From contig JAFXZJ010000043.1 of NCBI GenBank assembly GCA_017541305.1, forward strand, positions 1 through 36,981: a stretch of 36,981 nt of DNA, in the 5' to 3' direction. Under the pieces are notes generated by a model. That model was not told the DNA's origin. It did no database searches and worked only from the letters and a program-made list of their open reading frames with translations. The position numbers and the translations under genes are program-made. The stretch is from Clostridia bacterium (GTDB lineage Bacteria > Bacillota > Clostridia > Christensenellales > CAG-138). Of the stretch, positions 3,850 through 31,935 are shown one piece after another (positions within the stretch are counted from its first letter, which is position 1; the number at the start of each line of letters is the position of its first letter).

Positions 3850-3880
3850 AACTCACGATAATATAAGGAGGATACTACCT

Positions 3881-5329: not shown

Positions 5330-5359
5330 AACACACGATAACAAAGGAGAATAATACTT

Positions 5360-8080: not shown

Positions 8081-8110
8081 AAAATAGTATTGTATAGGAG
8101 GGATCTTACC

Positions 8111-13444: not shown

Positions 13445-13469
13445 CAGGCAGACAAAAGGAGTAAAGCTT

Positions 13470-14174: not shown

Positions 14175-14192
14175 TACAGAATGGAGATAAAT

Positions 14193-14828: not shown

Positions 14829-14854
14829 TATTTCACGAAAGGGATATAAAATTT

Positions 14855-15781
14855 ATGAAGAGCCTTATTGACATCCTTGACCTGACCGTGGAGGAGCTGG
14901 ACGAGCTTATCGCCACCGCTCAGGACATCATCGCCAACCCCCAAAAGTATGCGGAAGCCTGCCGCGGCTTAAAGCTTGCCTCCCTGTTCTTCGAGCCCTC
15001 CACGAGGACCCGCATGAGCTTTGAGGCCGCCATGTACGAGCTGGGCGGCAACGTGATCTCCGTGACCGGCGCGGGCACCTCATCCGCGGCCAAGGGCGAG
15101 AGCGTGGCCGACACCGCCAAGACCGTATCCTGCTATACCGACATAATCGCCATACGCCATCCCAAGGAAGGCGCCGCCTACGTGACGGCCAAGAACGCCA
15201 CCATTCCCGTGATCAACGCGGGAGACGGCGGTCACTGCCATCCCACCCAGACTCTTGCCGATCTGCTCACCATCTGGCGCGAGAAGGGCCGCTTTACCAA
15301 CCTCACCATAGGCGTGTGCGGCGACCTGAAATTCGGCCGCACCGTGCATTCCCTCATAAACGCCATGAGCCGCTATGAGGGCAACAAGTTCGTGCTCATC
15401 TCTCCCGAAGAGCTCAAGGTGCCCTCCTACGTGAAGAAGGACGTGCTCCAGCAGAAGCACATCCCCTACGTGCAGACCACCGATCTGATGGCCGTGATGC
15501 CCGAGCTTGACATACTCTATATGACCCGCGTGCAGCGCGAGCGCTTCTTCAACGAAGAGGATTATCTGAGGCTGAAGGACAGCTATATACTCACCGTTGA
15601 CAAGCTTAAGACCGCCAAGCCCGACCTTGCGATACTCCACCCCCTGCCCCGCGTGAACGAGATAAGCGTGGCCGTGGACGACGATCCCCGCGCATGCTAT
15701 TTCAAGCAGGTGCTGAACGGCAAGTATATGCGCATGGCGCTTATACTCAAGCTGCTCAAAGAGGCCGGAAAACTCAACTAA
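14855..15781 (+). CDS. pyrB: Aspartate carbamoyltransferase, catalytic subunit
   Basis: Condenses carbamoyl phosphate and aspartate, the committed step of pyrimidine synthesis. The carbamoyl-phosphate loop is [12 protein letters not shown] (residues 46-57), followed by a Lys-containing 80s-type loop (SSAAKGES), HPTQTLAD, and HPLPRVNEI near the C-terminus. The 308-residue length is typical. PyrI follows directly, so an allosteric two-subunit enzyme is expected. carA/carB are not in the window, so carbamoyl phosphate must be supplied from elsewhere. Confidence 0.96.
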
Positions 15782-15805
15782 AGGATCAAAGAAAGGAAAA
15801 CAGCT

Positions 15806-16222
15806 ATGAATATCGATTCCATCAACAACGGCATAGTTATCGATCATATTTCCGCCGGCAACGGCATGAAGCTCTATGATCTTTTGGGCCTTGGCGAGCT
15901 TGACTGCTCCGTAGCCATAATCAAGAACGTCGTAAGCCACAAGATGGGCCGCAAGGACATAATCAAGGTCGACGCGGACATCCCCGTGGATCTGGACGTG
16001 ATCGGCTTCGTCGATCCCGGCGCCACCATCAACATAATAAAGGACGGCGTGCTGGTTGAAAAGCGCAACATCGAGATGCCCGAAAGGCTGGTCAACGTTA
16101 TCAAGTGCAAGAATCCCCGCTGCATCACCTCGTGCGAGCAGGAGATAGAGCATATTTTCAAGCTTACCGACCGCGAGCATAAGGTCTATCGCTGCATCTA
16201 CTGCGAGACAAAGGCAAACTGA
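15806..16222 (+). CDS. pyrI: Aspartate carbamoyltransferase, regulatory subunit
   Basis: Nucleotide-binding regulatory chain that joins PyrB trimers and carries CTP/ATP control in the enterobacterial enzyme. The C-terminal zinc site is Cys101-x4-Cys106-x23-Cys130-x2-Cys133, the same spacing as in the E. coli subunit. The N-terminal allosteric domain begins with NIDSINNGIVIDHI. AAAGGA precedes ATG 15806. At 138 residues it is slightly shorter than the E. coli chain. It is the last gene of the pyr operon; a strong hairpin follows. Real effector response cannot be read from sequence. Confidence 0.95.
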   Translation: MNIDSINNGIVIDHISAGNGMKLYDLLGLGELDCSVAIIKNVVSHKMGRKDIIKVDADIPVDLDVIGFVDPGATINIIKDGVLVEKRNIEMPERLVNVIKCKNPRCITSCEQEIEHIFKLTDREHKVYRCIYCETKAN

Positions 16223-17373: not shown

Positions 17374-17485
17374 AATTAAACACCTTGCCCCCGAAGGGAG
17401 GGAGCCCTTTCTTGATATTTTGCCGTGTTCCATGCGGCATATGCGCCTTAAATGCTTATAAAACGGCGCTTTTTTCCATGATGCT

Positions 17486-17514
17486 AATGTATCACAACAC
17501 CGCATTGTTGTCAA
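17486..17514 (-). promoter_or_regulatory. Promoter of the lipoprotein gene
   Basis: On the minus strand TTGACA (17514-17509), a 17-nt spacer and TACATT (17491-17486). The untranslated leader to 17373 is about 105 nt and can form a small CCC-TTCG-GGG hairpin near the ribosome site. Confidence 0.75.
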
Positions 17515-17646
17515 GCTTTTTTTGAATGAGCCGCACAGCCGTTTTTTCGCGGCGCGATCCCGCCGTCGAAGCCTGCGGCGGGAACGGCCACGGCCTCCGA
17601 TTTGTCACAAAATTCATATGTTTTTTAAAATTATCGTAAATAACTG
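17515..17646. other. Spacer between divergent promoters, one hairpin
   Basis: No gene is seen. TCCCGCCG (17558-17565) and CGGCGGGA (17576-17583) form an 8-bp inverted repeat without a T-run; the rest up to the plus-strand promoter is AT-rich. It could hold regulator sites for either promoter. Confidence 0.4.
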
Positions 17647-17675
17647 TTGACACGCAGCCTATTGGTTTATATAAT
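17647..17675 (+). promoter_or_regulatory. Consensus promoter of the SipW/TasA-like operon
   Basis: TTGACA (17647-17652), a 17-nt spacer and TATAAT (17670-17675), a perfect match to the housekeeping consensus. Start of transcription should be near 17682. An inverted repeat CCATACC-GTC-GGTATGG (17703-17719) lies in the leader and may be an operator or an RNA hairpin. Confidence 0.9.
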
Positions 17676-17753
17676 ATAGGCGTAAAGGTATCTTTATACT
17701 CTCCATACCGTCGGTATGGAAATACGCATTTTCCCCGGAGGATATTTTATTAG

Positions 17754-18587
17754 ATGAAGAAAGGGTCTGGTTTTCTGCATAAGCTCGCATCGGCGATAGG
17801 CATTCTGCTCATCGTTCTGTTCGGCCTGCTGCTGCTTTTCAACATAACCATCATCGTAAAGGGGCTGATCAACAGCAGCGTGCCGCCGTCCGTTTTCGGC
17901 GTCACTCCCCTGGTCGTAAAATCCGGCTCAATGAGCAGCGACGTGCAGCATTCGGTTTATGCGAATGAGCTGGTCGATATCACGCCCGAAGCCGTGAAGG
18001 CGCTTAAGCCCGGCGACAAGGTCTATACCATGGCCGGCGATTATAGGATAGAGAACGTGATCGTATCGGTAAACGGCGCGGATTCCGACGAGCCCTTCTT
18101 CCTTGTAGAGCGTCCCGCCGCCGATCATATCGAGGTGGGCGATCTGATACTGGTCAAGTCCGCCGATACGAACACGATCAAGGTGGGCGACGTGATCTCG
18201 TTTATGGAAAACAGCTCCGTCGTCACGCATAGGGTCATCGGTATTAACGAAGCAAACGGCCGCTCCTTCATCACAAAGGGCGACGCGAACAATTCCGCCG
18301 ATACAGGCGATCCCGTGCCGGCCGACAAGGTGGTGGGCGTATTCTCATCGCGCATACCCGCGCTGGGCGATTTCATCTATTTCCTGCAGCAGCCCCTGGG
18401 CATGGCGATATTCATAGGCGTGCCCGTGCTGACCTTCCTTATCTATGATATCATCCGCCGCTCCCGCGCCTCGAAGCGCAAGGCCGAAAAGGAGGAATCG
18501 CTTGAGGAGGAGCTTGCGCGCCTGCGCGCGATGGCCAGGGAGCTTGAGGAAAAGAAGGCCGCCGAAGCGAAAAAAGATAACGATTAA
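17754..18587 (+). CDS. SipW-type signal peptidase I (277 aa)
   Basis: Membrane serine peptidase that removes signal peptides on the outer side of the membrane. The ER/SipW subtype is indicated by catalytic Ser59 in VKSGSM and by His159 in VVTHRVIG in place of the Lys general base of ordinary bacterial SPase I; FITKGDANNSAD follows. An N-terminal transmembrane helix (GILLIVLFGLLLLFN) and a C-terminal one (GMAIFIGVPVLTFLIYDII) flank the periplasm-facing domain. A charged coiled-coil-like tail (residues about 235-277) is cytoplasmic and longer than usual. GGAGG lies 12 nt before ATG 17754; an in-frame TAG directly upstream rules out an earlier start. The adjoining genes are its probable substrates, as in Bacillus tapA-sipW-tasA. 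Confidence 0.9.
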   Translation: MKKGSGFLHKLASAIGILLIVLFGLLLLFNITIIVKGLINSSVPPSVFGVTPLVVKSGSMSSDVQHSVYANELVDITPEAVKALKPGDKVYTMAGDYRIENVIVSVNGADSDEPFFLVERPAADHIEVGDLILVKSADTNTIKVGDVISFMENSSVVTHRVIGINEANGRSFITKGDANNSADTGDPVPADKVVGVFSSRIPALGDFIYFLQQPLGMAIFIGVPVLTFLIYDIIRRSRASKRKAEKEESLEEELARLRAMARELEEKKAAEAKKDND

Positions 18588-18660
18588 GTATATTTCTGCA
18601 TGCGTCGTTGCCACGGCGGTGCAGCAGCAAATATAACTGCGGGCGGGCGTCAGAGCCACG

Positions 18661-18757
18661 TTGACGCGCAGCCTGCGTTGCTCCAAGGGCAGCTGCCCGG
18701 AGGAACAATCACCCCGGGCAAGGAATGCCCAAATAAAAACATATCAGGAGGAACAAT
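18661..18757 (+). promoter_or_regulatory. Structured leader before the major subunit gene
   Basis: It contains the palindrome GGGCAGCTGCCC (18687-18698), a GGGCA/TGCCC hairpin (18716-18730), and GGAGGAACAAT twice (18699-18709 and 18747-18757). Only the second copy is placed to serve ATG 18761. TTGACGCGCAGCCT at 18661 copies the -35 region of the operon promoter, but no -10 follows. The structures may stabilise or insulate the downstream mRNA. Confidence 0.5.
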
Positions 18758-18760
18758 TCA

Positions 18761-19744
18761 ATGAAAAAGAATTGGATCACCAAGGTCGCTGTCCTGATGC
18801 TGGCCCTTGTTATGGTCACCAGCTGCTTCGTTGGCAGCACCTTCGCAAAGTACGTCACCCGCGCCGAGGGTCAGGATAATGCCCGCGTAGCAAAGTGGGG
18901 CGTGCTGGTTTCCGTTGAGGGCAACGCCTTTGCAACCGAGTATGAAGCCGAAGACGAGGCTTACCTCGAAGACGGCGGCACTCTCGCTGTTAAAGCTTCC
19001 AATGAAGATCAGGTAGTCGCTCCCGGCACCAACTCCGAAGAAGTCGGCGATAAACTCGTTGCTTCCGTAAAGGGCACCCCCGAAGTTGCCGCCCGCTATA
19101 TCCTTGAGGGCAAAGCGGTCAAGGACGTCGTTCTTCCCGCCGGCACCTACACCGATTACACCCACCTTGTAAAGGCCGACGACGGCACCTACGGCTATAC
19201 CGACACCTTCACCCTTGACAAGGCCTATTCCCCCGTTAAGTGGAACCTCGTCATCACCGGCAAGGGCCAGACCTTTGACGTTGCGGAAGAGCTGTATAAC
19301 AATCTTCCCGCTGAAAACCTCGCTCAGGCCGAGGCTTACGGCCTTACTCCCGACGGCTGCTCCATCTTCAGCGCCATCCAGATCCTAAAGAAGGTTGCCG
19401 GCAACGAAGGCTATCAGAACATCGTCGAGACCGCTCTCAGCAATGTTGTCAGCGGCGGCCGCAACTTCCAGCTTGAGGCTACTGACGACAGCTTCACGAT
19501 GTCCTATGATTTCGATCCCAACAAGGAGATGGATTACACCTTCGAGCTTTCCTGGGAATGGGCATTCGAGAACGGCGAAGAGATCGAGGACGGCATCTAT
19601 GAGTTCGATGCTGCCGACACCTTCCTGGGCAACTGGGCGGCTGTCAAGCTCGGTCAGGAGATCGAGGGCTTTGTTGAGCCCGCCGCTCCCGCCAGCACCG
19701 AGATCTCCGCTACCCTCACCGCAACCGCTGTACAGATCGACTGA
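18761..19744 (+). CDS. TasA/CalY-like major secreted subunit (327 aa)
   Basis: The N-terminal signal (MKKNWITKVAVLMLALVMVT, then SCFVGSTFAKYVTRAEGQDN) is the SipW-dependent type, with a likely cut after STFA. The mature part is acidic and beta-rich. Near the C-terminus it has WEWAFENGEE...DTFLGNWAA, a motif of Clostridia SipW substrates, and it ends ATAVQID. AGGAGG (18746-18751) lies 9 nt upstream. Codon choice is strongly biased (many GCT, GTT, CTT, AAC, TCC) compared with neighbours, suggesting very high expression, and hairpins flank the gene. By analogy to Bacillus TasA it may be the bulk subunit of a surface or matrix fibre. TasA itself is smaller, so homology is at family level only. 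Confidence 0.8.
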   Translation: MKKNWITKVAVLMLALVMVTSCFVGSTFAKYVTRAEGQDNARVAKWGVLVSVEGNAFATEYEAEDEAYLEDGGTLAVKASNEDQVVAPGTNSEEVGDKLVASVKGTPEVAARYILEGKAVKDVVLPAGTYTDYTHLVKADDGTYGYTDTFTLDKAYSPVKWNLVITGKGQTFDVAEELYNNLPAENLAQAEAYGLTPDGCSIFSAIQILKKVAGNEGYQNIVETALSNVVSGGRNFQLEATDDSFTMSYDFDPNKEMDYTFELSWEWAFENGEEIEDGIYEFDAADTFLGNWAAVKLGQEIEGFVEPAAPASTEISATLTATAVQID

Positions 19745-19778
19745 TTGCACTGCAGGCAATTCTTTGATCTAACGATTT

Positions 19779-19807
19779 CCGGCCTGCCCACGTGGCGGGC
19801 GGGCCGG
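19779..19807 (+). promoter_or_regulatory. Intercistronic hairpin after the major subunit
   Basis: CCGGCCTGCCC (19779-19789) pairs over 11 bp (one G-U) with GGGCGGGCCGG (19797-19807). No T-run follows, so it is probably not a full terminator. It could protect the upstream mRNA 3' end or reduce expression of distal genes. The rest of 19745-19907 shows no gene. Confidence 0.55.
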
Positions 19808-19907
19808 ATGACCCGTTTCGAAGCAGATCGATGCGTCCAAAGCGCGGTCTCATCGATGTGTTCCGAAATAACCGTCCGCCGCGGCCGCGGCCGAGAAGGG
19901 AGTACCC

Positions 19908-20771
19908 ATGAGCGAAACGAGCAAAACAAAGCGAAAAAACAGTTGGCTTTTGCCGACGATACTCATACTGTTCCTGCTTGAGGTGATCACGCTGCCCCTC
20001 ATACTGTTCCTGACCTATGCGGGCAGGGCTGAGGCGCCGCAACATATCGTCACCTTTGCCAACAAGCAGCTCACCTGGGACGAGGACACCGTTGTTGGAG
20101 AAAACGGCGTTGCGCACCTGAATTTCTTTGAGCGCACCTATCAGAACGTGAACTCGGAGAACGAGGATAACGTGTTCGCACCCGGCACCGAGCTTGACAC
20201 GACCATACGCCTGAAAAACTCGAGCTCGGATACCATCACCTATATCGCGCTGGCGTGGATGATAAAGGACTGTGACGACCTTGCCCTGTACGGCGATTTC
20301 CACGGCAACGGCGCTTCACCCATATCCGATTATCACGGCTATCTGCCCGAGGGCGTGACCGTGGACGATCTGCTTGGCGACGGCGCCGTGACCGGCTCGG
20401 TCGAGGGCGGCGGCATACACGATTTTGACGTTGACTGGCATTGGATTTTCGAGCGGGGCGACGAGATCGAGCCCGGCATTTACGAATCCGACTATATCGA
20501 CACCTATCTTGGAAATAAGGCCGCGTGGGACGTTGCGGACGACGCGACGATAGGCTTTCTCATAATCGTCGAGGGCGACGAGGGCGGCATAACGCCTCCC
20601 CCCGGCCCCGGCCCCGGACCCGGCCCGAAGCCGCCCAAGACCGGCACCGAATCCATGCTGACCTGGGGCCTTGTGCTGATCGGCATAAGCGCGGTGGTGC
20701 TTATATTCGCCATAATAAGGCGCGTTATGGAGCGCAGGCAGGAAAAGAAAGAGCAGGACGACCTGCATTGA
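19908..20771 (+). CDS. Membrane-anchored TasA-like relative with PKTG tail (287 aa)
   Basis: A Lys-rich start and an N-terminal hydrophobic segment (LPTILILFLLEVITLPLILF) precede AGRAEA, a possible cleavage site. The ectodomain repeats the signature of the preceding gene: WHWIFERGDEIEPGIYESDY, then DTYLGNKAA. A PGPGPGPGPKPP linker leads to PKTGTES, a transmembrane helix (MLTWGLVLIGISAVVLIFAI) and a basic tail, the layout of an LPXTG sorting signal, though the first motif residue is Pro instead of Leu. It may be a sortase substrate or simply a membrane anchor for the fibre. GAAGGGAG precedes ATG 19908. Likely partner or base subunit of the 18761 product; no sortase is in the window. Confidence 0.72.
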   Translation: MSETSKTKRKNSWLLPTILILFLLEVITLPLILFLTYAGRAEAPQHIVTFANKQLTWDEDTVVGENGVAHLNFFERTYQNVNSENEDNVFAPGTELDTTIRLKNSSSDTITYIALAWMIKDCDDLALYGDFHGNGASPISDYHGYLPEGVTVDDLLGDGAVTGSVEGGGIHDFDVDWHWIFERGDEIEPGIYESDYIDTYLGNKAAWDVADDATIGFLIIVEGDEGGITPPPGPGPGPGPKPPKTGTESMLTWGLVLIGISAVVLIFAIIRRVMERRQEKKEQDDLH

Positions 20772-20797
20772 GACTTTGATCCGAAGGAGCGTCGGGC

Positions 20798-21424
20798 ATG
20801 GGCTTGGCTAAAAGAAGGGCCCGCGAAAAGGCAGGTTCCAAAGCGGGAAAGGCGATCGCCGTAATACTGGTCGTGCTGGTGGCATACTGCTGTGTTTACA
20901 GCCTTGCCGCCAAGATGATCGCCGGGGAATCGATCCCGAAGCCCCTTGGCTTTGGCGTGGGCGTGGTGCTTACCGGAAGCATGGAGCCCGCGCTGCACGA
21001 AAACTCGCTGATAATCGTGACCGGCGCTTCAAACGTGAAGGTGGGCGACGTGATCGTTTACCAGACGGGGGGCACCCCGGTGGTGCACCGCGTGATCGAT
21101 ATAGACGAATCGGCAGGCACCTTCACCGCGCAGGGCGACGCGAACAACGCGCCCGACGATCCCGTGACGTTTTCGAAGATCAAGGGAAAGGTGGCTTTCG
21201 CGATACCCTATCTGGGCCTTGCCGCAAGGTTCATACAGACCACGCCCGGGCTCATAATGGTGCTGATAGTATTATTCGTGCTCTTCTTCCTGTCCGTCAG
21301 GACGAGGGAGCAGGAACAGCAGGAGGACGTTGGCTCCTCCGATATCAAGGCGGAGATCGAGGAGCTTCGCGCGATGCTCGAAAAGGCGGCGCAGGGCTCA
21401 GAAAACAGCGAGGATAAACAGTAG
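20798..21424 (+). CDS. Second SipW-type signal peptidase I (208 aa)
   Basis: Same family as the gene at 17754 but more compact. Catalytic Ser61 is in LTGSMEPAL and His97 in PVVHRVID; FTAQGDANNAPD follows. Transmembrane helices lie near residues 19-42 and 160-180, with an acidic/coiled tail (IKAEIEELRAMLEKA) at the C-terminus. GAAGGAG precedes ATG 20798 and 26 bp separate it from the previous gene. Two such peptidases in one operon suggest different substrate sets: possibly the first for the large subunit and this one for the two small substrates that follow. That division is inference from gene order. Confidence 0.9.
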   Translation: MGLAKRRAREKAGSKAGKAIAVILVVLVAYCCVYSLAAKMIAGESIPKPLGFGVGVVLTGSMEPALHENSLIIVTGASNVKVGDVIVYQTGGTPVVHRVIDIDESAGTFTAQGDANNAPDDPVTFSKIKGKVAFAIPYLGLAARFIQTTPGLIMVLIVLFVLFFLSVRTREQEQQEDVGSSDIKAEIEELRAMLEKAAQGSENSEDKQ

Positions 21425-21454
21425 TATCCGGTTTTCCGGTTTGGAGGTGGCTTT

Positions 21455-21940
21455 ATGAAGCATAAAAGATCGACTAAGGGGATATGGCTCGACGTGGGCG
21501 TGCTCATCGTTTGCCTTGCCATTATTACCTCATGCCTCTCATCCGGTATGTTCGCAAAATTCGCCACCCGCGCCGACAGGCTCAAGGATTCCGCACAGAT
21601 CGCTTCGTTCAACGTGAGCGCGGTGCTCAGGAACGCTTCCGCTTCCATAGACGGCGGGGCCGCCGAATACGAGCTGACGCTCGGCAACAATTCGGAGGCG
21701 GCCGTGTATTATTCCGTCACGCTGGACTTCGGCCCTTCGGCAAAGGGGCTTGCGGTCAGAATAGGCAGCAAGATCGCATCCGTGGATGATAACGGCACGG
21801 TCACGTTCGAAAGGGTCGGCACGATGGCTCCCGGCAGGACGAACGTTACCGTTGGCATAACCGTATCCCGCGGCGAATACGCGGGCGGCGAGGAGACCTT
21901 CGATTTCACCGCCAACGTCACCTTCACCCAGATCGACTGA
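21455..21940 (+). CDS. Small CalY/TasA-like SipW substrate (161 aa)
   Basis: A hydrophobic segment (GVLIVCLAIITSCLSSGMFA) followed by KFATRADRLKDSAQIASFNV is the SipW-type signal, with a predicted cut after MFA. The mature part is a single beta-sandwich-like domain (YELTLGNNSEAAVYYSVTLD) of the size of camelysin/CalY-type proteins and ends TFTQID, like the major subunit's TAVQID; both genes finish with the bases CAGATCGACTGA. TTGGAGG precedes the start. Probably a minor fibre subunit or initiator; there is no protease motif to support metalloprotease activity. Confidence 0.75.
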   Translation: MKHKRSTKGIWLDVGVLIVCLAIITSCLSSGMFAKFATRADRLKDSAQIASFNVSAVLRNASASIDGGAAEYELTLGNNSEAAVYYSVTLDFGPSAKGLAVRIGSKIASVDDNGTVTFERVGTMAPGRTNVTVGITVSRGEYAGGEETFDFTANVTFTQID

Positions 21941-21951
21941 GGTATAAAGCT

Positions 21952-22611
21952 ATGAAGATATTCGGAAAAACGATCTCAAAGCACGCCCTGTTCCGCATAG
22001 GCGCGATATTGCTGACGCTGCTGGTGCTGGGCACGAGCGCGGGCATTTATGCCAAATACGTTCGCGGGGTGCGGGTCAAGGGCACGCTGAAAGTCGACGG
22101 CGCCGCGGCCGATACCGAAGCGCCCGACGATACCGGCAAGGGACTTGACGAGACCGAAGCGCCCGAAGTCACCGAAGGACCCGTGATCACCGACGAGCCC
22201 GAAGTTACCGACGAGCCCGAAGTTACCGACGAGCCCGTGATCACCGAAGAGCCCGAAGCCGTTCCCGAGATCATATCGTTCGAGGCCCGCGCGGAGCTTG
22301 CCCCAGTCGGCGGGGAGGATTTCGACTGCTATCTTTATATCGAGCTTGGCGGCGACGCTGTGCCCGGCGCGGAATGGCTGCCCGTTGAGGGCGCCCGGGG
22401 CAGGCACGGCAGCAGCGTGTACGTCTATGCGAACGGCGGTCTGCCCGTGATAGTCGATCCCGGCGAGGACGGCGGAATTATCGTGAATGCGGACGGCGCG
22501 CTTTGCGTGCGCGTTTCATACGAGGCTTCCGCTGAAGCGGAGGTTTTCGCCTGTCTCGTTCCCGCTTATGACGGCGAGACCCCGGCTTCGCTTTACAATG
22601 ATCATCAATAA
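21952..22611 (+). CDS. SipW-type secreted protein with EVTDEP linker (219 aa)
   Basis: The N-terminal segment (FRIGAILLTLLVLGTSAGIY, then AKYVRGVRVKG) has the same G-x-aromatic-A-K-aromatic ending as the other substrates. A Thr/Glu/Pro-rich linker with repeats of EVTDEP/VITDEP (bases about 22150-22260) spans to a C-terminal beta domain (EIISFEARAELAPVGG to VRVSYEASAEAEVFACLVPA). No anchor is visible at the C-terminus. The start is 11 bp after the previous stop. The function is unknown; position suggests a minor or linking component of the same surface structure. Confidence 0.65.
   Translation: MKIFGKTISKHALFRIGAILLTLLVLGTSAGIYAKYVRGVRVKGTLKVDGAAADTEAPDDTGKGLDETEAPEVTEGPVITDEPEVTDEPEVTDEPVITEEPEAVPEIISFEARAELAPVGGEDFDCYLYIELGGDAVPGAEWLPVEGARGRHGSSVYVYANGGLPVIVDPGEDGGIIVNADGALCVRVSYEASAEAEVFACLVPAYDGETPASLYNDHQ
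22150..22260 (+). repeat. 18-bp repeats encoding EVTDEP-type linker
   Basis: GAAGTTACCGACGAGCCC occurs twice in a row near 22200-22234, flanked by degenerate GTGATCACCGA(C/A)GAGCCC copies. It encodes an acidic Pro/Thr stalk in the 21952 product. Confidence 0.8.
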
Positions 22612-22725
22612 ACCCGATGTTGTTCGGCTCGGGGGATATAAAGCATCGGTATTTTCTGCATCGGCATTCTTTAAGCCCCGATGAGGGAAGTACCGTTTTT
22701 GTTTCTGAAAGGAATGTGAATAACA
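22612..22725 (+). other. Spacer before the Lgt-like gene, possible hairpin
   Basis: TCGGGG (22628-22633) can pair with CCCCGA (22676-22681), enclosing the near-repeat GCATCGGTATT/GCATCGGCATT. No promoter or T-run terminator is clear. AAAGGA lies about 12 nt before ATG 22726. Confidence 0.3.
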
Positions 22726-23430
22726 ATGCTTGAATGGATAAGCGCGCATCCGCTCCTGATGCTGCTTGCCGGCGCGTCGATCGCGACGTTCATATGGCTG
22801 ATGCTCGCAAGAAGGCGCCTTGAAATAAAATGGTATGCGGCGGCGCTCATCGCCGTGCTGCACGTGCTGTGCGGCGTGCTGTGCGTTAAGCTATTTGCCG
22901 TTGCGGAGGCGGGCTTTGATTTTTCCCAATTCAGCGGCCAGAGCCTTTTCGGGGCTGTGTTCTTCCTGCCGCTGTTTTATTATTTGGGCGCGAAGCTTTT
23001 CAGGCGAAAGCCCGCGGACGTGTTCGATTGCTTTGCCGTGCCGATGATATTCACGCTTTTTTGCGCAAGGATAAGCTGTCTTATCACCGGCTGCTGCCTT
23101 GGCAGGCAGATACCGGGCTCTTCCATGAGCTATCCCACCCGCGAGGCGGAGCTGATCTTTTATGCCGTGCTGCTTATAATACTGATCCCGCGCGTAATAA
23201 AAAACACCCGCCGGGGCACGGCGTATCCCATATTCCTTACCGCTTACGGCGTGTTCCGCTTCGTCTGCGAATTCTTTCGCGAATCGAAAGCCGGGGGCGT
23301 TTTTCACATCGCTCATCTTTGGGCCGCGCTTGCATTCATTGCGGGCATAAGCCTTTTGCTTGAAATAAACAACCGAATGGGTTCCGCGCAAGTCTCTCAT
23401 CATACAAAACATTGGAGGAAAACAAAATGA
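22726..23430 (+). CDS. Lgt-like prolipoprotein diacylglyceryl transferase family protein (234 aa)
   Basis: A polytopic membrane protein with about six or seven helices and Lgt-family landmarks: ARISCLITGCCLGR aligns with the GRxGNFxNGExxGR region (catalytic Arg retained, the following Asn changed to Cys), YPTREAELIF aligns with the HPTQLYE-like region, and AYPIFLTAYGVFRFVCEFFRES matches the conserved RFxxEFxR block with its second key Arg. Lgt attaches diacylglycerol to lipobox cysteines. None of the neighbouring operon products has an evident lipobox, so this divergent member may have a modified role. Its stop overlaps the start of the giant gene (ATGA). GC-type 'GCC' variants of this motif are known in the family, so activity cannot be excluded. 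Confidence 0.7.
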   Translation: MLEWISAHPLLMLLAGASIATFIWLMLARRRLEIKWYAAALIAVLHVLCGVLCVKLFAVAEAGFDFSQFSGQSLFGAVFFLPLFYYLGAKLFRRKPADVFDCFAVPMIFTLFCARISCLITGCCLGRQIPGSSMSYPTREAELIFYAVLLIILIPRVIKNTRRGTAYPIFLTAYGVFRFVCEFFRESKAGGVFHIAHLWAALAFIAGISLLLEINNRMGSAQVSHHTKHWRKTK

Positions 23431-26400
23431 CCAGAAATGTTTTCAGGCGCATGTTCAGTCTGCTGCTTGCCGCGGCGATGCTGCTGGGGCTGCTGCCCTC
23501 GCTTGGCATCCTTGCAGAAAGCGGCCTTATTCGCTCCGCCCTGGCCGAGGAGTCTCAGGTAAGCAGCGGCAGCGGCACATGGATAAGCGGCAAGCTCGCG
23601 TACACATACGTCGCAATGTCCGAGGGTTCATCGTCCAACGGCGCTTCGGGCTCCGTTTCCGTCAGCGGCAGCACGATGACCGTTAAGGCGGTATCAAGCA
23701 AGGCAACCTCGGGCTGCAGCAGCGAAAGCGCTTATCCCACCACCACCACGGTCACGGTCACCAACGCCTCGCAGTATCCGCTCAGGGTCAACAGCATCAC
23801 GGCGAACCCCGAAAGCCTCACCTCGCTTTCAGCCGGTGAGATGATCGCGTCCGGAGCTTCATTTATTATAAGGATCACCGCAAACCCCAACAGCGCCGAA
23901 GACACGTCCTCCCGCACCGCCACCGGCACCGTGACTATATCCGTCACGGAGGAGCGCACCGTCACCATCACCGCGATCGCCTCGCCCTATGTGAGCTACA
24001 CGGTGGGTGGGCACGCCGTTGCGCAGAACGGCGGCAACGTGAGTTTTACCGCCGATATCGGCTCGAACGTTGCGCTTTCCGCGATCACCGCGCCCGAGGG
24101 CTATACCTTCAAGGGCTGGAGGATAGGCAGCAACCCCATAGCGATGGTTTCGAGCTTTACGGTCGTCTCCGAATGCTCCGTGTTCCCGGTGATCATAAGC
24201 GGCGAATATTCCGAAGCCCCCAATTTCAGAGTCGGCTCCAATACCTACACATTCTGGGATGAGGCGATCTCCGCCGCGGTCAACGGCAGCAACAAAAAGG
24301 TCATAGTCGATCTTCCCTCCGTCACACTGCCCGACACCCTCGAGGGCAACCTGCTCACCCCCGCGGGCAGCACCTACGTCAAGCCCGCTTCTGACGGCGG
24401 CGTTGAATACATAGTGCCCTCGGGCGTAACGCTGCTTGTACCTTTTGACAGCGCCGGCACGGTCTACACCACGGCGCCGGCCATAACCTATAATGATTAC
24501 GCCACGCCCACCGCTTTCCGCACGCTCACGATGCCCTCCGGCGTCAGGATGACCGTGCAGAGCGGCGGTTCGCTCTGCCTTTCGGGCAAGCTCTCCTCCA
24601 AGGGCCAGATGGGCGGCTATAACGGCACCCCCACCGGCCCCGATGGGCGCATCAATATGCTGGGCGGCAGCAGCATCACGCTGAAAAACAATTCCAACCT
24701 GTACTGCTGGGGCTATATCCACGGCGACGGCGAGGTCATCGCCGAATCGGGCTCCACCGTTTACGAGGCCTTCCAGATCAAGGACTGGCGCGGCGGCACG
24801 GCCACGTCCAACGTGTACGTATACGCATTCATATTCAATCAGTATTATATACAGAACATCGAGGTGCCGCTGAAGGTGTATGCGGGAGCTTCCGAAAAGC
24901 TATATTCCGCCGTAAACGCCTCCAGCACCGCCTATCCCATGAATTCGTCGCTTATAGGCCAGGGGGGCCTGTTCAATATCGCATCGGGCTACGTGGTGAA
25001 GGATTATCGGGAATCCGCAGACCGCCTGCACGTTGAGGTCAACGGCGACGTTTCCGTTTCGCCCATGACGCTTTCGGGCCTTCCCATAATAGGAAGCATA
25101 TCCACGACCGATTACATACTTCCGATAACGAGCAATTTGAGCATCGATTTCGTCAGCGGCACTTCAAGCGTGACGCAGGATCTTGAAATGCTTCCCGGCG
25201 TTGAGATAAGGATAGGCCGGAACGCCGAATTCAGGATAAACAGCGGCAAAAAGATCTACGTTTACGATAACGACGACTGGCTGAATTTCTCGGGCTCCGC
25301 AAGGATGTATCCGATAGGCTACTCGGTGGCCAACGGCACCGCCGCCATCCGCAGCGCCGAATCGCTCAAGGACGTGGCGCTCGATATCGACGGCACACTG
25401 ACCGTGCAGGGCTCGCTTTTCACGTCGGAAGGCGGCGCGAACATAACCAGCTCCATGGGTACCGAGGGCAATAACGGCAGGATCGTGCTCGTCAATCCCC
25501 CTGCCGCGTCATCGACCATATACGAGACGCTGAACAACAGCGACAAGACCCCCGTCGTCTTCACCGCTCCCAAGCTTCACAACGGCGACGATACCCATTC
25601 CGCCACCGCCGGCACCGGAGCGAGCACCTGGTATTACGATAAGACGGGCGAGCACTGGTATCGCCACCTCATAAGCATAGTGTATAACGGTCAAACGGTT
25701 GGCCGACTGTATCACTGCGAGGATCCCGCGCTGACCTATGACGCGTCCTGGCTGAGCGGGCTTTCGGCCTCGGTCACCTCGGGCTCCGCCACGGTCTCGG
25801 TCAGCGGGACCGACGTCAATATCTCGAACGTAACCTCCGACGCCGTCGTCACGCTTTCCGGCGCCGCCGCGAAATACATACCGACCTTTGTGCTCAACGA
25901 AGCGCAGTATGCCAATTACGTGACCTTCACGGGGAACACCCTTTCGGAAACGGTCACCATAGACGGCGCGCTCTGCTACGTTGTGAAAAAGGCGCCCTCC
26001 GCGATGACTGTGGGCACGGAATACGCCGCGCCAACCGATCAGGAGATGGGCGTTTCACCCGAAAATCACAACGCCGTCACCTGGAACCTTTCGGGCGTGT
26101 CGGCATCGAGCGGCTCGCCCTATAACGGCTTCGTTCCCGTTGGCGGCACACCCGACGGCGAGGTGTTCATATTCGGCTTCTATTCCGGCGCTGTCGCCTA
26201 TAACAGCTTTACCGACGCTTACTATCCCACCCTTGCCGCCGCAATGGAGGCCGTGCCCACGTCCGGCACGGGTACGGTAAGGCTGATCGCCGACTGCGGC
26301 AGCTTTGAGGAGGAATCCGGCACCGCCGCTTACACCGTGCCCGCCGCCGTGGACCTGACGATAGATCTTGACGGTCACCGCGCCCTGGGCAGGCTTGTCA

Positions 26401-29400
26401 ACAGGGGCGCGCTGCATCTTGAAGTCAACGGGGGCGAATGGGCTCTCGCAACGGGCGCTTCCGCCGCCTCCGCCGCCCATAAGGGCTTGGCTGCTGTCAC
26501 CAATAACGGCGGCAGTCTTGTGATAACCGATACCGCGGGAGGCGGCCGCATCACCGCGGACGCGATCAGCAACTCGGGCATTCCCGACCACGCGGCGATC
26601 GTGAGGAACATGGCCGGAGGCACGCTCGATATCTCCGGCGTGACGCTTGAAAACCTTGAGGACGTCAACGGCTATTTCTCGGCGGTGCTCAACGACCGCT
26701 CCTCGATAGCGAGCATGAGCGGAGTGACCATCGTTTCCCCGCGCGGCTATGCGGTCTGGAACCATGGCGGACATATCGCGCTGATCGATTCGTGTAATAT
26801 CGACTGCGCCTACGGTATCTACAACCGCAACATGCGCGGCACGAACACGATCGCTCAGGGTTATAATATCGCAAACTACGGCACGATCGACCTGATAAAG
26901 GATTCGACCGTGACGGTCGGCCAATACGCGGTGCATAACTCCGCGGTGATAACCGAGCTCAACAACTGCACGTTCACCGCGCATCCCGATTCGGCCCAGG
27001 TCAACACATACGGTACCGCGGAGGCGAACGTGCAGGGCAACGTGCAGTGCTACACCGTGTACAACAGCGGCAACTGGTGGTATGACACGGCCGTGTGGAA
27101 GCGCACGGACGTGACGAGCGGCACTTATCGGCGCACCGACGAATACAAGGAGGACGCGGCGTTCCGTCCCACGATAGGAACGATAACCGACTGCCGCATT
27201 TACGCCGAAAACACCTCCACCAGCGCCGATCACGGCTGCGCGCTGTATAACACATCGGGTATCATAGGCGCCATCACGGGCAGCACCGTGATCAAGACCT
27301 ATAAGCATCCGGACAATCCCAAGAGCATCGCATCCAACTACGCTCTGCGCAACACCGCGGGCGGCGTCATTAACAGCATTTCGGGCAGCGTGACCATATC
27401 GGCAAGCGGGTATTCCGCCCTCTACAACGACGGTCAGTTCACGACGAAGACGGTCAACACCTACGGTGACAAGATCGGCGGCATTCAGCTTTCCAACAAC
27501 ACCACCTACGGTCAGCCCTCCGAGATCACGAGCATCACCGCGACAGGTACGATCTCCGCAGGCAGCTATTACGCCATCTACACCAACGGTTATATCGGAA
27601 GCATCGATTCGACCGACCTCACGCTTTCCGCAAACTATAATGCATTGCTCAACTCCGGCGCGGGTGCTCTTTCAAGCTATGAATATGTCCGCACCTATAC
27701 GAGCAACACCGATGCGACGACTGAGACCAAACGCACTGAGACCTACGTCCGCAACCTCGAGAGGGGCGGCGTCATCGGTACGATCAGCGGCGTTCACTTC
27801 GTCGGCACCGGCTCGAACAGCTATTATCTGCTCCAGAATCAGGGCAAGATCGGCACGCTGAAGGATTCCGACTTCTCCGCCGCCTCCCCCAGAGCGGGCG
27901 AGGGCTACGCGATGTTCCTTAACGGCGACAGCCGCCAGTCCGGCTATACGCTGACGAGGGAGCCCTACGCATACGAGAGCCTCTTTATCACCCCCTATGA
28001 GTATCATTACGATTACGACGCTGCGGCCATAAACGAAATCGACAACGTTACTCTCACAAAGAACGCGACCTTCGCGTTCCGCAATCTCGGCGTTATCAAC
28101 ACGCTGAAGAACAGCACGTTCACCGGCACGCAGTACGTGCTTGTGAACGCCGCGGGCGGACCTTATGTCAATCGTGATTCCGTGCGCTACTACTCCGGCG
28201 CGACCAAGTTCGCGACCACGAAGAACAACGGCAGCGAGCTTACATATTATTATGAGAAGATCGCCACGGAGATCGGCGCGATGGATAACTGTACGGTAAG
28301 GGGCACGTCCACCTATGCGCTCTACAACGGCGGTCATCTCGGCACGCTGACGAACAACACTGTCTCCTCCACCAATACGACCGTACTGTATAACGGCGGC
28401 GCGTCCATCCGCAAGTATGATTACAACCTTAAGGATATCATCACCGTGACGGCGACCGATTCCGCGTGCACCGTCTCCTATGGGCTGAACAACGAGACGA
28501 AGATCATAACCACCGATTATGACGCGCCCGTTATCGATCTGATAGGCCCGGGGAATCATTTCAGCGGCACTTATCAGGTGATAGTCAATCTCGGCGAGAT
28601 CACCGAGATCGACGGCGGAGAGGACCCCGTGACGATCACCTCCTCCACGCAGAAGCAGATCGCCGTCTATAACTATAACGGCACGCTCGATTCCCGCACC
28701 GCCTCGACGCCCTATACCGAGGGCACGGCGGGCACCGCAGTCAATGACGACGTGTATTTCAGCGCGCACATAGGCTCCGTCAGGAACACCGTGATAACCT
28801 CGAACGGCGTGGGCATACAGAACGGCGCGGCGAACGCCGCCTATCTGCCCGTTATCGACGAGCTGGGCGAGGGGCTTGAGGCAGCCGCCAACTGCACCAC
28901 GGCGGGCTATCACACAGTCTATAACACCGCGTATGCCAAGATCACCGAGATCTCCGGCGGTATCTACACGGCGGCAAAGGCAACGACCAACGCATATAAG
29001 AACAACAATACCGTTGCCGAGCAGGCAACGCTGATCTCCGGCGGCGATTTCAGGGGCGCGGCGAACACCCGCGCGAACGCCGTGTTCGAGCCCGACAACA
29101 CCGACCGTCAGACTTATCCCGAGGGCAAGGATCTGGTCGGCACAAGGCCCGTCACCCTGCACGACGGCAGCACGGCGGACGGTTATTACTACGTCGGCAG
29201 CACCTTCACCGTCACTTGGCGCATCGACGACGAAAACGATCCTCTGGAGGTCGACGAGGCCGGCTCCGGCACCATCCCCTCCTATGACGGCGCGGTTCCC
29301 GAAAAGCCCGATGACGACGCCTATACCTACACGTTCGCCGGCTGGGCCGCGGCGCCCGGCCTGGAGGAGGGCGTTCCCGATTCCGAGCTGCCGCCCGTGA

Positions 29401-31889
29401 CCGCCGACGTCACCTATTACGCCGCCTTCAGCCGCACGCTAAAGGGCTATACAGTGATTTGGAAGAACTGGGACGGCACGGTGCTTGAGACCGATGAGAA
29501 CGTGCCCGAGGGCGCGATTCCCGAATACAACAGCACGACTCCCGCGCGCCCCGCCACAGCTCAGTATGCCTATACGTTCTCGGGCTGGACTCCCGCGGTG
29601 GCCCCCGTGACGGGCGACGCGGTCTATACCGCCGTATTCACCGAAACGACGAGGGCTTACACCATCACCTTCGTGAACTATGACGGCGCGGTGCTGCAGA
29701 GCTCTGAATTCGATTACGGCACGACGCCCGTCTATTCCGGCGCCGCGCCCACAAGGCCCGCCACCGCCGAAGCCACTTTCACTTTCAGCGAATGGTCGCC
29801 CGAAATAGTCCCCGTAAGCGGCGAGGCGACCTATACCGCGGTATTCACCTCCGTGGTAAACTCCTATACCGTCGTTTGGAAGAACTGGGACGGCACGGTG
29901 CTCGAGACCGACGCCAACGTGCCCTACGGCGCTGTTCCCACCTATGACGGCCCGACTCCCGAAAAGGCGGCTGACGCTCAGTATTCCTATGCCTTTGCCG
30001 GCTGGACGCCCAATATCGCCGCCGTCACGGGCGACGCGGTCTACACCGCTGTGTTCACCGAGGCGACCAATACGTTCACCGTCACGTGGCTGAACGACGA
30101 CGGCTCTGTGCTCGAGACGGATGAAAACGTGCCCTACGGCGCCGCTCCCTCCTATGACGGCGAGACCCCCGCAAAGGCCCCGACCGCTCAGTACAGCTTT
30201 GCCTTCTCCGGCTGGACGCCCGAGCTTGCGCCCGTCACTTGCAGCACCGCCTACACCGCGACCTATGCCGCGTCGGTCAGAAGCTATACGATAAGGTTCG
30301 TAAATTACAACGACGAGCTGCTCTTTGAAGCCGAATACGAATACGGCGCGACGCCCGTCTATGAAGGCGCGGCTCCCGAAAGGCCTTCCACCGCGCAGTA
30401 TGCCTATACTTTCGCGGGTTGGGAGCCCGTGATAACCGCAGTCACAGGCGAGGCGACATATAAGGCCGTGTTCACCGAGACGCTCAGGACCTACACCGTC
30501 GTTTGGAAGAACTGGGACGGCTCCGTGCTCGAGACCGATTCCGAGGTCCCCTATGGCGCGACGCCCGCGTATGACAGCGCCGCTCCCGAGAAGGCCGGCA
30601 CCGCTCAGTATTCCTACGCCTTCGCCGGTTGGGAGCCGGAGATCGCGTCCGTCACAGGCGACGCGGTCTACACCGCCGTATTTACTGAGACGGTCAATAC
30701 CTATACCGTCGTCTGGAAGAACTGGGACGGTACGGTGCTTGAAACGGATGAGAACGTGCCCTACGGCGCGACGCCCGCGTATGACAGCGCCGCTCCCGAG
30801 AAGGCCGGCACCGCTCAGTATTCCTACGCCTTCGCCGGTTGGGAGCCCGAAATAACTGCCGTCACCGGCGACGCGGTTTACACCGCAGTGTTCACCGAGA
30901 CGGTCAATACCTATACCGTCGTTTGGAAGAATTGGGACGGTACGGTGCTCGAGACGGACGAGAACGTGCCTTACGGCGCGACGCCCGCGTATGACGGTGA
31001 ACCTCCCGAGAAGGCGGCTGACGCTCAGTATTCCTACGCCTTCGCCGGTTGGAATCCCGAAATAACGTCCGTCACCGGTGACGCGGTCTACACCGCCGTA
31101 TTCACCGAGACGGTCAATACCTATACAGTCGTCTGGAAGAACTGGGACGGCTCCGTGCTCGAGACCGATTCCGAGGTCCCCTACGGCGCGACGCCCGCGT
31201 ATGATGGTGAACCTCCCGAGAAAGCGGCTGACGCTCAGTATTCCTACGCCTTCGCCGGTTGGAATCCCGAAATTGAGTCTGTCACCGGCGACGCGGTCTA
31301 CACCGCCGTGTTCAGCTCCGCGGCAAACGTCTACACGATCACGTTCCTGATCAACGGCAATCCCTATGCCGAGCTGAGCTTTGCTTACGGCACGCCGCCC
31401 GAAGCCCCCGCGTTTGAGGTCCCCGCGGGATATATATTCTCCGGCTGGGATCTTCCCGACGCGATGCCCGCCTGCGATCTGACGCTCAACGCCTCGCTTA
31501 CGGGCAATCCTCACACGCTCACGATCGAGTATTGCTTTATCGACGATACCCCCGCCGCGGAAACGTTTGTTAGCACGGTCGGCTTCGAGGAGAATTACAG
31601 CGTGAACAGCCCCGAGGTGACGGGCTGCATCCCCGATGCGCTTATCGTGACCGGCACCATGCCCGACGAGGACGTGACCGTGCGCGTGACCTATTACCGT
31701 ATAGGCGATACCAACCTTGACAATAAGGTCACGCCCGACGACGTTTCGCTGCTTTCCGCCTATCTGATGAACAGCGGAACGCTTGCAGGACACGGCCTTG
31801 CGAATGCCGACGCGAACCTTGACGGAGTCGTTGACGTGCTGGATCTTGCCGCGATCTGCTCCATCGCAATGGGCGGCGCGGGCAAATAA
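23427..31889 (+). CDS. Giant secreted beta-helix/InlB-repeat/dockerin protein (2820 aa)
   Basis: ATG 23427 follows TTGGAGG (8-nt spacing) and gives a signal peptide (MTRNVFRRMFSLLLAAAMLL, GLLPSLGILA). Domains in order: a Ser/Thr-rich beta region with an InlB-like module (to about residue 260); a long beta region (about 260-930); a parallel beta-helix-like region (about 940-1900) with many short N-x-G-x-I and Y-A-L/I-Y-N units; ten InlB/Listeria-Bacteroides-type repeats of about 70 residues (bases 29205-31331) and an eleventh divergent one; and a C-terminal type I dockerin (about 31704-31880; DTNLDNKVT, DANLDGVVD). Beta-helix plus InlB repeats is the layout of large surface adhesins; the dockerin implies non-covalent attachment to a cohesin. 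No LPXTG or transmembrane tail is present. It is translationally coupled to the Lgt-like gene and ends the operon. Confidence 0.88.
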   Translation: MTRNVFRRMFSLLLAAAMLLGLLPSLGILAESGLIRSALAEESQVSSGSGTWISGKLAYTYVAMSEGSSSNGASGSVSVSGSTMTVKAVSSKATSGCSSESAYPTTTTVTVTNASQYPLRVNSITANPESLTSLSAGEMIASGASFIIRITANPNSAEDTSSRTATGTVTISVTEERTVTITAIASPYVSYTVGGHAVAQNGGNVSFTADIGSNVALSAITAPEGYTFKGWRIGSNPIAMVSSFTVVSECSVFPVIISGEYSEAPNFRVGSNTYTFWDEAISAAVNGSNKKVIVDLPSVTLPDTLEGNLLTPAGSTYVKPASDGGVEYIVPSGVTLLVPFDSAGTVYTTAPAITYNDYATPTAFRTLTMPSGVRMTVQSGGSLCLSGKLSSKGQMGGYNGTPTGPDGRINMLGGSSITLKNNSNLYCWGYIHGDGEVIAESGSTVYEAFQIKDWRGGTATSNVYVYAFIFNQYYIQNIEVPLKVYAGASEKLYSAVNASSTAYPMNSSLIGQGGLFNIASGYVVKDYRESADRLHVEVNGDVSVSPMTLSGLPIIGSISTTDYILPITSNLSIDFVSGTSSVTQDLEMLPGVEIRIGRNAEFRINSGKKIYVYDNDDWLNFSGSARMYPIGYSVANGTAAIRSAESLKDVALDIDGTLTVQGSLFTSEGGANITSSMGTEGNNGRIVLVNPPAASSTIYETLNNSDKTPVVFTAPKLHNGDDTHSATAGTGASTWYYDKTGEHWYRHLISIVYNGQTVGRLYHCEDPALTYDASWLSGLSASVTSGSATVSVSGTDVNISNVTSDAVVTLSGAAAKYIPTFVLNEAQYANYVTFTGNTLSETVTIDGALCYVVKKAPSAMTVGTEYAAPTDQEMGVSPENHNAVTWNLSGVSASSGSPYNGFVPVGGTPDGEVFIFGFYSGAVAYNSFTDAYYPTLAAAMEAVPTSGTGTVRLIADCGSFEEESGTAAYTVPAAVDLTIDLDGHRALGRLVNRGALHLEVNGGEWALATGASAASAAHKGLAAVTNNGGSLVITDTAGGGRITADAISNSGIPDHAAIVRNMAGGTLDISGVTLENLEDVNGYFSAVLNDRSSIASMSGVTIVSPRGYAVWNHGGHIALIDSCNIDCAYGIYNRNMRGTNTIAQGYNIANYGTIDLIKDSTVTVGQYAVHNSAVITELNNCTFTAHPDSAQVNTYGTAEANVQGNVQCYTVYNSGNWWYDTAVWKRTDVTSGTYRRTDEYKEDAAFRPTIGTITDCRIYAENTSTSADHGCALYNTSGIIGAITGSTVIKTYKHPDNPKSIASNYALRNTAGGVINSISGSVTISASGYSALYNDGQFTTKTVNTYGDKIGGIQLSNNTTYGQPSEITSITATGTISAGSYYAIYTNGYIGSIDSTDLTLSANYNALLNSGAGALSSYEYVRTYTSNTDATTETKRTETYVRNLERGGVIGTISGVHFVGTGSNSYYLLQNQGKIGTLKDSDFSAASPRAGEGYAMFLNGDSRQSGYTLTREPYAYESLFITPYEYHYDYDAAAINEIDNVTLTKNATFAFRNLGVINTLKNSTFTGTQYVLVNAAGGPYVNRDSVRYYSGATKFATTKNNGSELTYYYEKIATEIGAMDNCTVRGTSTYALYNGGHLGTLTNNTVSSTNTTVLYNGGASIRKYDYNLKDIITVTATDSACTVSYGLNNETKIITTDYDAPVIDLIGPGNHFSGTYQVIVNLGEITEIDGGEDPVTITSSTQKQIAVYNYNGTLDSRTASTPYTEGTAGTAVNDDVYFSAHIGSVRNTVITSNGVGIQNGAANAAYLPVIDELGEGLEAAANCTTAGYHTVYNTAYAKITEISGGIYTAAKATTNAYKNNNTVAEQATLISGGDFRGAANTRANAVFEPDNTDRQTYPEGKDLVGTRPVTLHDGSTADGYYYVGSTFTVTWRIDDENDPLEVDEAGSGTIPSYDGAVPEKPDDDAYTYTFAGWAAAPGLEEGVPDSELPPVTADVTYYAAFSRTLKGYTVIWKNWDGTVLETDENVPEGAIPEYNSTTPARPATAQYAYTFSGWTPAVAPVTGDAVYTAVFTETTRAYTITFVNYDGAVLQSSEFDYGTTPVYSGAAPTRPATAEATFTFSEWSPEIVPVSGEATYTAVFTSVVNSYTVVWKNWDGTVLETDANVPYGAVPTYDGPTPEKAADAQYSYAFAGWTPNIAAVTGDAVYTAVFTEATNTFTVTWLNDDGSVLETDENVPYGAAPSYDGETPAKAPTAQYSFAFSGWTPELAPVTCSTAYTATYAASVRSYTIRFVNYNDELLFEAEYEYGATPVYEGAAPERPSTAQYAYTFAGWEPVITAVTGEATYKAVFTETLRTYTVVWKNWDGSVLETDSEVPYGATPAYDSAAPEKAGTAQYSYAFAGWEPEIASVTGDAVYTAVFTETVNTYTVVWKNWDGTVLETDENVPYGATPAYDSAAPEKAGTAQYSYAFAGWEPEITAVTGDAVYTAVFTETVNTYTVVWKNWDGTVLETDENVPYGATPAYDGEPPEKAADAQYSYAFAGWNPEITSVTGDAVYTAVFTETVNTYTVVWKNWDGSVLETDSEVPYGATPAYDGEPPEKAADAQYSYAFAGWNPEIESVTGDAVYTAVFSSAANVYTITFLINGNPYAELSFAYGTPPEAPAFEVPAGYIFSGWDLPDAMPACDLTLNASLTGNPHTLTIEYCFIDDTPAAETFVSTVGFEENYSVNSPEVTGCIPDALIVTGTMPDEDVTVRVTYYRIGDTNLDNKVTPDDVSLLSAYLMNSGTLAGHGLANADANLDGVVDVLDLAAICSIAMGGAGK
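29205..31331 (+). repeat. Ten tandem InlB-like repeats, mostly 210 bp
   Basis: Unit starts are 29205, 29448, 29658, 29865, 30075, 30285, 30492, 30702, 30912 and 31122. The first unit is 243 bp and the others 207-210 bp. Typical unit features are YTVVWKNWDG, VLETDENVPYG, QYSYAFAGW and DAVYTAVFTE. The last four units are nearly identical in DNA, so this block is prone to expansion, contraction and assembly collapse. Confidence 0.92.
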
Positions 31890-31900
31890 GGTATGATGGG

Positions 31901-31935
31901 AAAACCCCGCGGAGAGAGTGCCGCGGGGTTTTTTT
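31901..31935 (+). terminator. Terminator after the giant gene
   Basis: AAAACCCCGCGG (31901-31912) pairs with CCGCGGGGTTTT (31921-31932) around an 8-nt loop, with a T-run to 31935. It closes the 17647-31889 transcription unit. Confidence 0.93.

Follow-up and report, generated by a model that had tools for sequence, protein, structure and literature searches.

A conserved SipW/TasA-type operon with a dockerin-bearing giant protein, probably a surface-fibre system tied to the cellulosome, in a member of the Clostridia

Contig JAFXZJ010000043.1 of the Clostridia bacterium assembly GCA_017541305.1 carries eight co-directional genes for two SipW-type signal peptidases (SipW1 and SipW2), four proteins with SipW-type signals (TasA1, an anchor subunit, T161, and T219), an Lgt-like membrane protein, and a protein of 2820 residues, the giant. 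The whole contig of 36,981 nucleotides was analysed and is called the window; it is contig C8 of a genome of 2.42 Mb that is 91% complete. The best explanation, which we regard as probable though far from certain, is that the locus encodes a surface fibre of the SipW/TasA type along with a giant adhesin, and that cohesin-dockerin binding ties this system to the cellulosome of its host, a cellulosome-bearing member of the Clostridia. The host is probably a gut bacterium of rumen origin, a habitat read from the record titles of relatives; those with the closest locus were recorded from the rumen, colon, and caecum of buffalo, the rumen of sheep, and other sources. Below, G, L, and C denote genomes, loci, and contigs of the window genome, respectively.

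The operon (Table 1) follows a perfect sigma-70 promoter. By a rough estimate from base composition, about 0.0013 such sites would be expected in that 17 kb; the whole window contains one further perfect site (TTGACA-17-TATAAT, 10463-10491, + strand), 5' of a pyrimidine gene cluster at 10606-16222 (pyr genes, named by eye). Within the 500 bases 5' of the orthologous SipW1 genes, the best sites matched at 11 of 12 positions in L084, 10 of 12 in L085 and L081, and 9 of 12 in L080; in L082 and L083, the best match (9 of 12) was found only at -209. The last two open reading frames overlap by ATGA at 23427-23430, with GGAGG upstream. As judged from their spacing, the eight genes probably form one transcription unit. 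The promoter, the eight co-directional genes (17754-31889), and the coupling of the last two had been proposed in a reading made without database searches (the sequence-only reading) and were confirmed. Its further claim, that no strong terminator occurs until 31901, held in so far as an intrinsic terminator closes the operon; a strong hairpin lacking a T-run was found after gene 2.

The cassette is real, conserved, and sparsely distributed. SipW1 had a near-full-length match in 7 of 103 genomes of the family, five in the genus of the window and two in a sister genus. The anchor protein family was found in six of the 103 (in G005, the seventh, the contig stops within TasA1) and, at E <= 1e-10, in 4 of the 390 further genomes searched in the class. 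Fourteen cassettes, from metagenome-assembled genomes of Clostridia type, were compared, namely ten loci from a contig scan, the window, and those of G218, G380, and G321 (G279 was taken as the same record as L089). Two of them, L082 and L089, break off early, leaving 12 that are readable past SipW2; all of these contain SipW1, TasA1, the anchor subunit, SipW2, at least one small SipW-type protein, and then a giant, so that the proposed order of a SipW pair, a TasA-like protein, and a giant was kept throughout. Six are family cassettes (G000, G001, G004, G009, G068, and G071). The giant lies on the same strand in ten cassettes and on the opposite strand, in convergent orientation, in L084 and L085, the loci of the two sister-genus genomes G068 and G071 (L085 being that of G071). 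In these two relatives, the giant must therefore have its own promoter, which the sequence-only reading had named as evidence against itself; the giant of the window is co-directional and overlapped by its neighbour. In L084, L085, L088, and L176, the giant is truncated at the end of the locus or contig. Apart from common dockerins and InlB-type repeats, the genes flanking the operon in the window are absent beside the family cassettes. Among seven pairs of upstream flanks, a long common stretch was seen only for L080/L083, with 29 bases for L081/L083; L082 and L083 are almost identical (97.6%). A giant, exchangeable in type, is a constant component of the cassette.

Both peptidases scored above the TIGR02228 cut-off of 51.85 bits, as the sequence-only reading would have it, and they are the only matches to this model at E <= 0.01 in the genome. 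The motifs GSM, [TV]HR, and GDAN are present in both and place them among the SipW-type enzymes, with Ser-His and not Ser-Lys motifs. In a tree, the 12 SipW1 and 12 SipW2 rows were separated by one branch (support 100/99; 200 of 200 bootstrap trees), with a long-branch warning for L086_2 and L088_2. The two SipWs are paralogues, each conserved on its own. The SipW1 proteins of the family have an insertion of about 60 amino acids between the GSM motif and DHIE.GDL (window 17928-18123), which is absent in L086-L089.

The putative fibre proteins are related to each other in part. TasA1 and T161 have their signal and post-signal segment in common (profile comparison, probability 98.1), TasA1 and the anchor subunit their C-terminal domain (hhalign probability 98.1), and matches to a TasA1 profile at E <= 0.1 in the genome were confined to this operon. 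The anchor subunit ends like a sortase substrate, in PPKTG, a transmembrane segment, and a basic tail, and the genome has two sortase matches; against the sortase-target model TIGR03063 it scored 15.5 bits, below the cut-off of 18.15. In the anchor family, PxTG occurs in 8 of 10 aligned rows and an SLH domain in one (PF00395, 9.9e-36), and the same type of motif terminates scaffoldins of the genome. The domain blocks of a predicted T161 model mostly reached a predicted local distance difference test score of about 90, and a Foldseek search with it placed the TasA fibre at rank 7 (E 8.5e-4). Neither a TasA nor a camelysin match was obtained for genes 2, 3, 5, and 6 in Pfam and NCBIfam at E 0.1; with TasA1, a sequence profile search of the PDB gave nothing at E 1 and Foldseek nothing under 1e-3. 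In the earlier description of four TasA-like or SipW-type proteins, the likeness to TasA is borne out by motifs and weak fold matches, and not by Pfam or NCBIfam.

A strong hairpin was present at the position after TasA1 in all ten cassettes examined, with z values from -1.7 (L084 and L085) to -7.6. Among 60 shuffled sequences each, its energy was reached by two for the window, by four for L084 and for L085, and by none for the other seven; in L085, the hairpin of best energy differs from the conserved one, which is also present. Among five distinct family sequences, 4 of the 12 pairs were changed on both sides. Pairing was kept in 98.3% of cells against a shuffled mean of 90.3%, a level attained by none of 500 shuffles, and at most 58.3% of cells paired when partners were slid. 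The covariation score exceeded all 500 shuffles, yet four two-sided pairs were reached by 42 of them. In C. perfringens, a terminator after bsaA yields a short sipW-bsaA transcript and a long read-through transcript (PMC7395162; cited papers are represented here by excerpts), and because of this the hairpin may, by analogy, be a level-setter. The gap between SipW1 and TasA1 (18588-18760) is also structured in the window (z -2.7; 1 of 60 shuffles), and four relatives have a hairpin bearing GCCACG in the loop in this gap; the window sequence of the gap gave no Rfam match at E 5. The sole match in an Rfam search of 17400-23500 was SraG (E 2.1), judged to be due to chance.

The 2820-residue giant and its dockerin, both seen earlier, were confirmed, with Dockerin_1 at residues 2760-2809 (E 2.1e-7; 31.4 bits, cut-off 22.9). 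Its supposed InlB character is borne out by nine InlB-like repeat cores spaced 69-70 amino acids apart, and not by the InlB-repeat model PF09479, which stayed below its cut-off. Homology with the giants of G004 (51% in 2203 columns) and G001 (43% in 2272) extends over most of the window giant. All six readable family cassettes have a C-terminal dockerin on the giant, detected by eye in G004 and by hidden Markov model in the other five. Outside the family, four giants are complete (L086, L087, L175, and L177); none of them has a dockerin by Pfam at E 0.001, and the giant position therefore seems older than the dockerin. With VWA and GBS104-like tip-pilin domains in the L177 giant (which is that of G321), the products of this position look like adhesins. 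The giant of L087 (5683-9126) itself opens with a SipW-type-looking signal, SFTFAKF (by eye); its alignment as a fusion of a T219-like segment and an adhesin was well placed but weak (probability 10.6; 2.1 for the T161 family). L087 is recorded as Bacteroides, though its cassette resembles those of Clostridia metagenome-assembled genomes.

The genome contains 62 Dockerin_1 matches (E <= 0.001) and 16 cohesin matches (E <= 0.1). Eight of the latter lie in a single frame on C59 that runs off the contig and has two neighbours ending in PPVTG or PPQTG plus a transmembrane segment; C58 encodes adaptor scaffoldins, with a cohesin plus a dockerin. A type I dockerin at its C-terminus and cohesins in the same genome mark the giant as a probable cellulosomal protein. 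All 14 genomes examined from the genus and its sister genus contain cohesins; three further genomes of the genus are outside this set. When the 62 dockerins were sorted by eye, 12, including that of the giant, had a first repeat of the DVSLLSAYL type and most others of the DALLxLRxALGI type; the class varies among the giants of relatives. The other 11 of the giant's class belong to two adaptor scaffoldins and nine mixed proteins, including carbohydrate-binding Cthe_2159, a cleaved-adhesin protein, an amylase with CBM26, RCC1, endonuclease I, a lipase, and a C1 protease.

This sharing of a dockerin class with adaptor scaffoldins and mixed proteins points to docking on scaffoldins. T219 of the window was considered as a hidden cohesin and rejected (hhalign probability 0.2), and no cohesin match was found on the other operon proteins of the window in a Pfam search. 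Because of this, it is more likely that the window giant would dock on scaffoldins of the sortase or adaptor type whose genes lie at other places in the genome. The G071 protein at the T219 position (L085 14534-15391) carries a cohesin (PF00963, 2.9e-8; probability 97.6 against the cohesins of the window genome) behind an N-terminal SipW-type signal that matches the T219 family (probability 94.5), beside the convergent dockerin giant. Found in one of six family cassettes, this cohesin is the strongest individual indication that fibre and giant may be joined directly. The proposal that the giant joins the structure through its dockerin is thus favoured by the G071 locus and disfavoured by the operon of the window.

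The Lgt-like protein was confirmed as a PF01790 member. Its gene occurs in the cassettes of G000, G004, and G009 and, beside another giant, in G008, a genome without a SipW1 match; no copy was seen in the G001, G068, and G071 cassettes, the search in G068 and G071 being confined to this locus. Because it is missing from three of six family cassettes and stands beside a giant in the SipW-less G008, the gene is not a core part of the cassette; of the neighbourhood expected to be conserved, the dockerin held within the family and the Lgt-like gene did not. The four close copies found all adjoin a giant, and the protein is most likely a helper of the giant. In G008 (L046 1626-15871), the gene lies between those for a 1635-amino-acid protein and for a giant that has MBG/YDG and InlB-type repeats and is incomplete at the contig end. 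The window protein resembles Lgt in its family and its YGxxRF..EFFR motif, and all four copies keep two arginine motifs with GCC near the first. They differ from Lgt in a motif of the AR.xC....GCC.G type (GR in G008), where E. coli Lgt (5azb) has GRLGNFINGELWG. H103, N146, and E151 of E. coli Lgt, which we take to be residues of the catalytic region, appear to be replaced, in a stretch where the 5azb alignment scores only 2.8 bits and with the copies aligned without a canonical Lgt row. Lipidation of the SipW-type proteins, whose signals contain lipobox-like TSC, TAC, and TTC, was considered and rejected: the Cys is equally present where the Lgt-like gene is lacking (L081, L084, and L085), no lipobox was seen by eye on the giants, and the Lgt catalytic region appears changed.

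Table 1 Features of the operon in the window
Feature	Position	Strand	Characteristics
Sigma-70 promoter	17647..17675	+	TTGACA-17-TATAAT, 12/12 match, spacer 17
SipW1, SipW-type signal peptidase	17754..18587	+	TIGR02228 81.5 bits; GSM, THR, GDANN motifs; alignment, tree
TasA1, putative major fibre subunit	18761..19744	+	SipW-type signal STFA-KY; post-signal ARVAKWGV; C-terminal VQID
Hairpin after TasA1	19778..19808	+	12 bp, no T-run, -27.4 kcal/mol; precedes anchor gene
Anchor subunit (putative)	19908..20771	+	C-terminal domain common with TasA1; PPKTG, transmembrane segment, basic tail (sortase-type)
SipW2, second SipW-type signal peptidase	20798..21424	+	TIGR02228 94.9 bits; separate clade
T161, small SipW-type subunit (putative)	21455..21940	+	Predicted Ig-like beta-sandwich; alignment, model, Foldseek
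T219, variable last SipW-type protein	21952..22611	+	Signal region AKY...G.L.I
Lgt-superfamily membrane protein, accessory	22726..23430	+	PF01790 2.1e-15; GCC motif
Giant adhesin-like protein, 2820 amino acids	23427..31889	+	Ordinary signal peptide (by eye); repetitive over a long region; InlB-like repeats; dockerin of a class that is minor in this genome at the C-terminus
Intrinsic terminator	31905..31935	+	Hairpin 31905-31928 plus T-run

In the surface-fibre reading, SipW1 and SipW2 would cleave the signal peptides of TasA1, the anchor subunit, T161, and T219, which by eye are of the T/S-x-A type; each peptidase might serve different substrates, as the sequence-only reading proposed. TasA1 would polymerise, probably by donor-strand exchange via its post-signal segment, and T161, having the same segment, would co-assemble or cap, while a sortase would fix the anchor subunit to the wall through PPKTG. 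The hairpin might set a high level of SipW1 and TasA1 and a lower level of the remaining genes. The giant, exported by its ordinary signal peptide, would be the adhesin of the system; its dockerin would plug into cohesins, most likely of sortase-type or adaptor scaffoldins, and so bring fibre and cellulosome into one adhesin-bearing surface layer. The expanded surface-fibre system proposed from the sequence is partly supported, by the conserved order, the SipW paralogues, and the constant presence of a giant, the Lgt-like protein dropping out as a core part of it.

It is rather unlikely that the giant is simply one among many cellulosomal dockerin proteins and lies behind a fibre operon by chance gene order, without joint function. 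Such a view would be in line with the abundance of dockerins in the genome, five of which sit on four other window genes (1405-9547), with a dockerin class common to enzymes, adhesin-like proteins, and adaptor scaffoldins, and with the convergent giants of G071 and G068. However, the giant adjoins the cassette in six of six readable family genomes despite differing flanks, and a giant likewise closes the cassettes outside the family, the four complete giants there having no dockerin. The absence of a fibre is improbable to a greater degree: the SipW-type proteins would then be non-polymerising, wall-anchored surface or matrix proteins and the giant an adhesin or protective coat. TasA1 indeed has neither a sequence match nor a strong fold match to TasA, and Ig-like sandwiches are a common fold; against this, the order of sipW, major subunit, and hairpin parallels that of the filament-forming bsaA operon (PMC7395162), and TasA1 and T161 have a post-signal segment in common, as do TapA and TasA (PMC9674648).

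It also seems doubtful that the fibre itself is a cohesin-bearing scaffold that loads dockerin proteins, the giant first, and thus a fibre-borne cellulosome. The G071 operon, with its cohesin on the last SipW-type protein beside a dockerin giant, suggests such a structure, but this cohesin was seen in one of six family cassettes and T219 of the window is none by profile comparison. A wider possibility is put forward tentatively: in rumen Clostridia, a SipW/TasA-type, sortase-anchored fibre might present cohesins directly, as in G071, or via adaptor scaffoldins, and receive the giant and possibly enzymes, which would make the biofilm fibre and the cellulosome a single assembly.

Elsewhere in the window, four secreted repeat proteins in a row (1405-9547), LRR/BspA-like (leucine-rich repeat) by eye, carry five dockerins of the majority class, two of them in one gene. 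At the other end (35881-36981), the contig stops within the gene for a secreted TlpA/ResA-like thioredoxin that has InlB-type repeats and a tail rich in PT.

The locus bears on two open questions, namely the means by which rumen bacteria cling to plant fibre and the positioning of cellulosomes at the surface of the cell. SipW/TasA-type fibre genes and a dockerin giant in one conserved operon, together with the cohesin in the operon of a relative, would connect biofilm-type fibres with cellulosomes in a way that is direct and can be tested. The operon is also a TasA-type cassette in which the SipWs are paired, a paralogue of TasA1 carries an anchor of the sortase or SLH type, and the giant adhesin is exchangeable. 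No description of a coupling of the cellulosome to a SipW/TasA operon was found in the literature searched, including the excerpts of PMC12484212, in which an apparent mention of TasA is the surname Tasaki. As excerpted, PMC5817068 handles SipW, TasA, and dockerin in separate sections, and PMC13033320 and PMC3796261 do so for TasA and dockerin.

In conclusion, SipW/TasA-type filaments are of a known kind; the paired SipWs, the anchored TasA1 paralogue, the exchangeable giant, and the proposed coupling to the cellulosome in this lineage are new as far as the literature was searched. Like the operon described here, C. perfringens sipW-bsaABCRSD has SipW first, a filament protein second, a terminator or hairpin next, and more secreted proteins downstream; unlike it, it has one SipW, two-component genes inside, and a BsaA for which no LPXTG-like motif is reported, and its excerpted description mentions no wall-anchored paralogue, giant, or dockerin (PMC7395162). 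B. subtilis tapA-sipW-tasA likewise has a SipW-processed beta-sandwich subunit and a minor partner with a similar N-terminal segment, but consists of three genes, with one SipW and no giant among them (PMC9674648). Two co-assembling subunits of the TasA/CalY kind are also found in the B. cereus TasA-CalY-CapP system, which is called sortase-independent (PMC13082335), whereas the anchor family has a sortase-type motif in most of its aligned rows. The surface anchoring of cellulosomes by sortase or SLH and by adaptor scaffoldins (PMC12484212) has its counterpart in the PPxTG and adaptor scaffoldins of this genome and in its dockerin-bearing giant.
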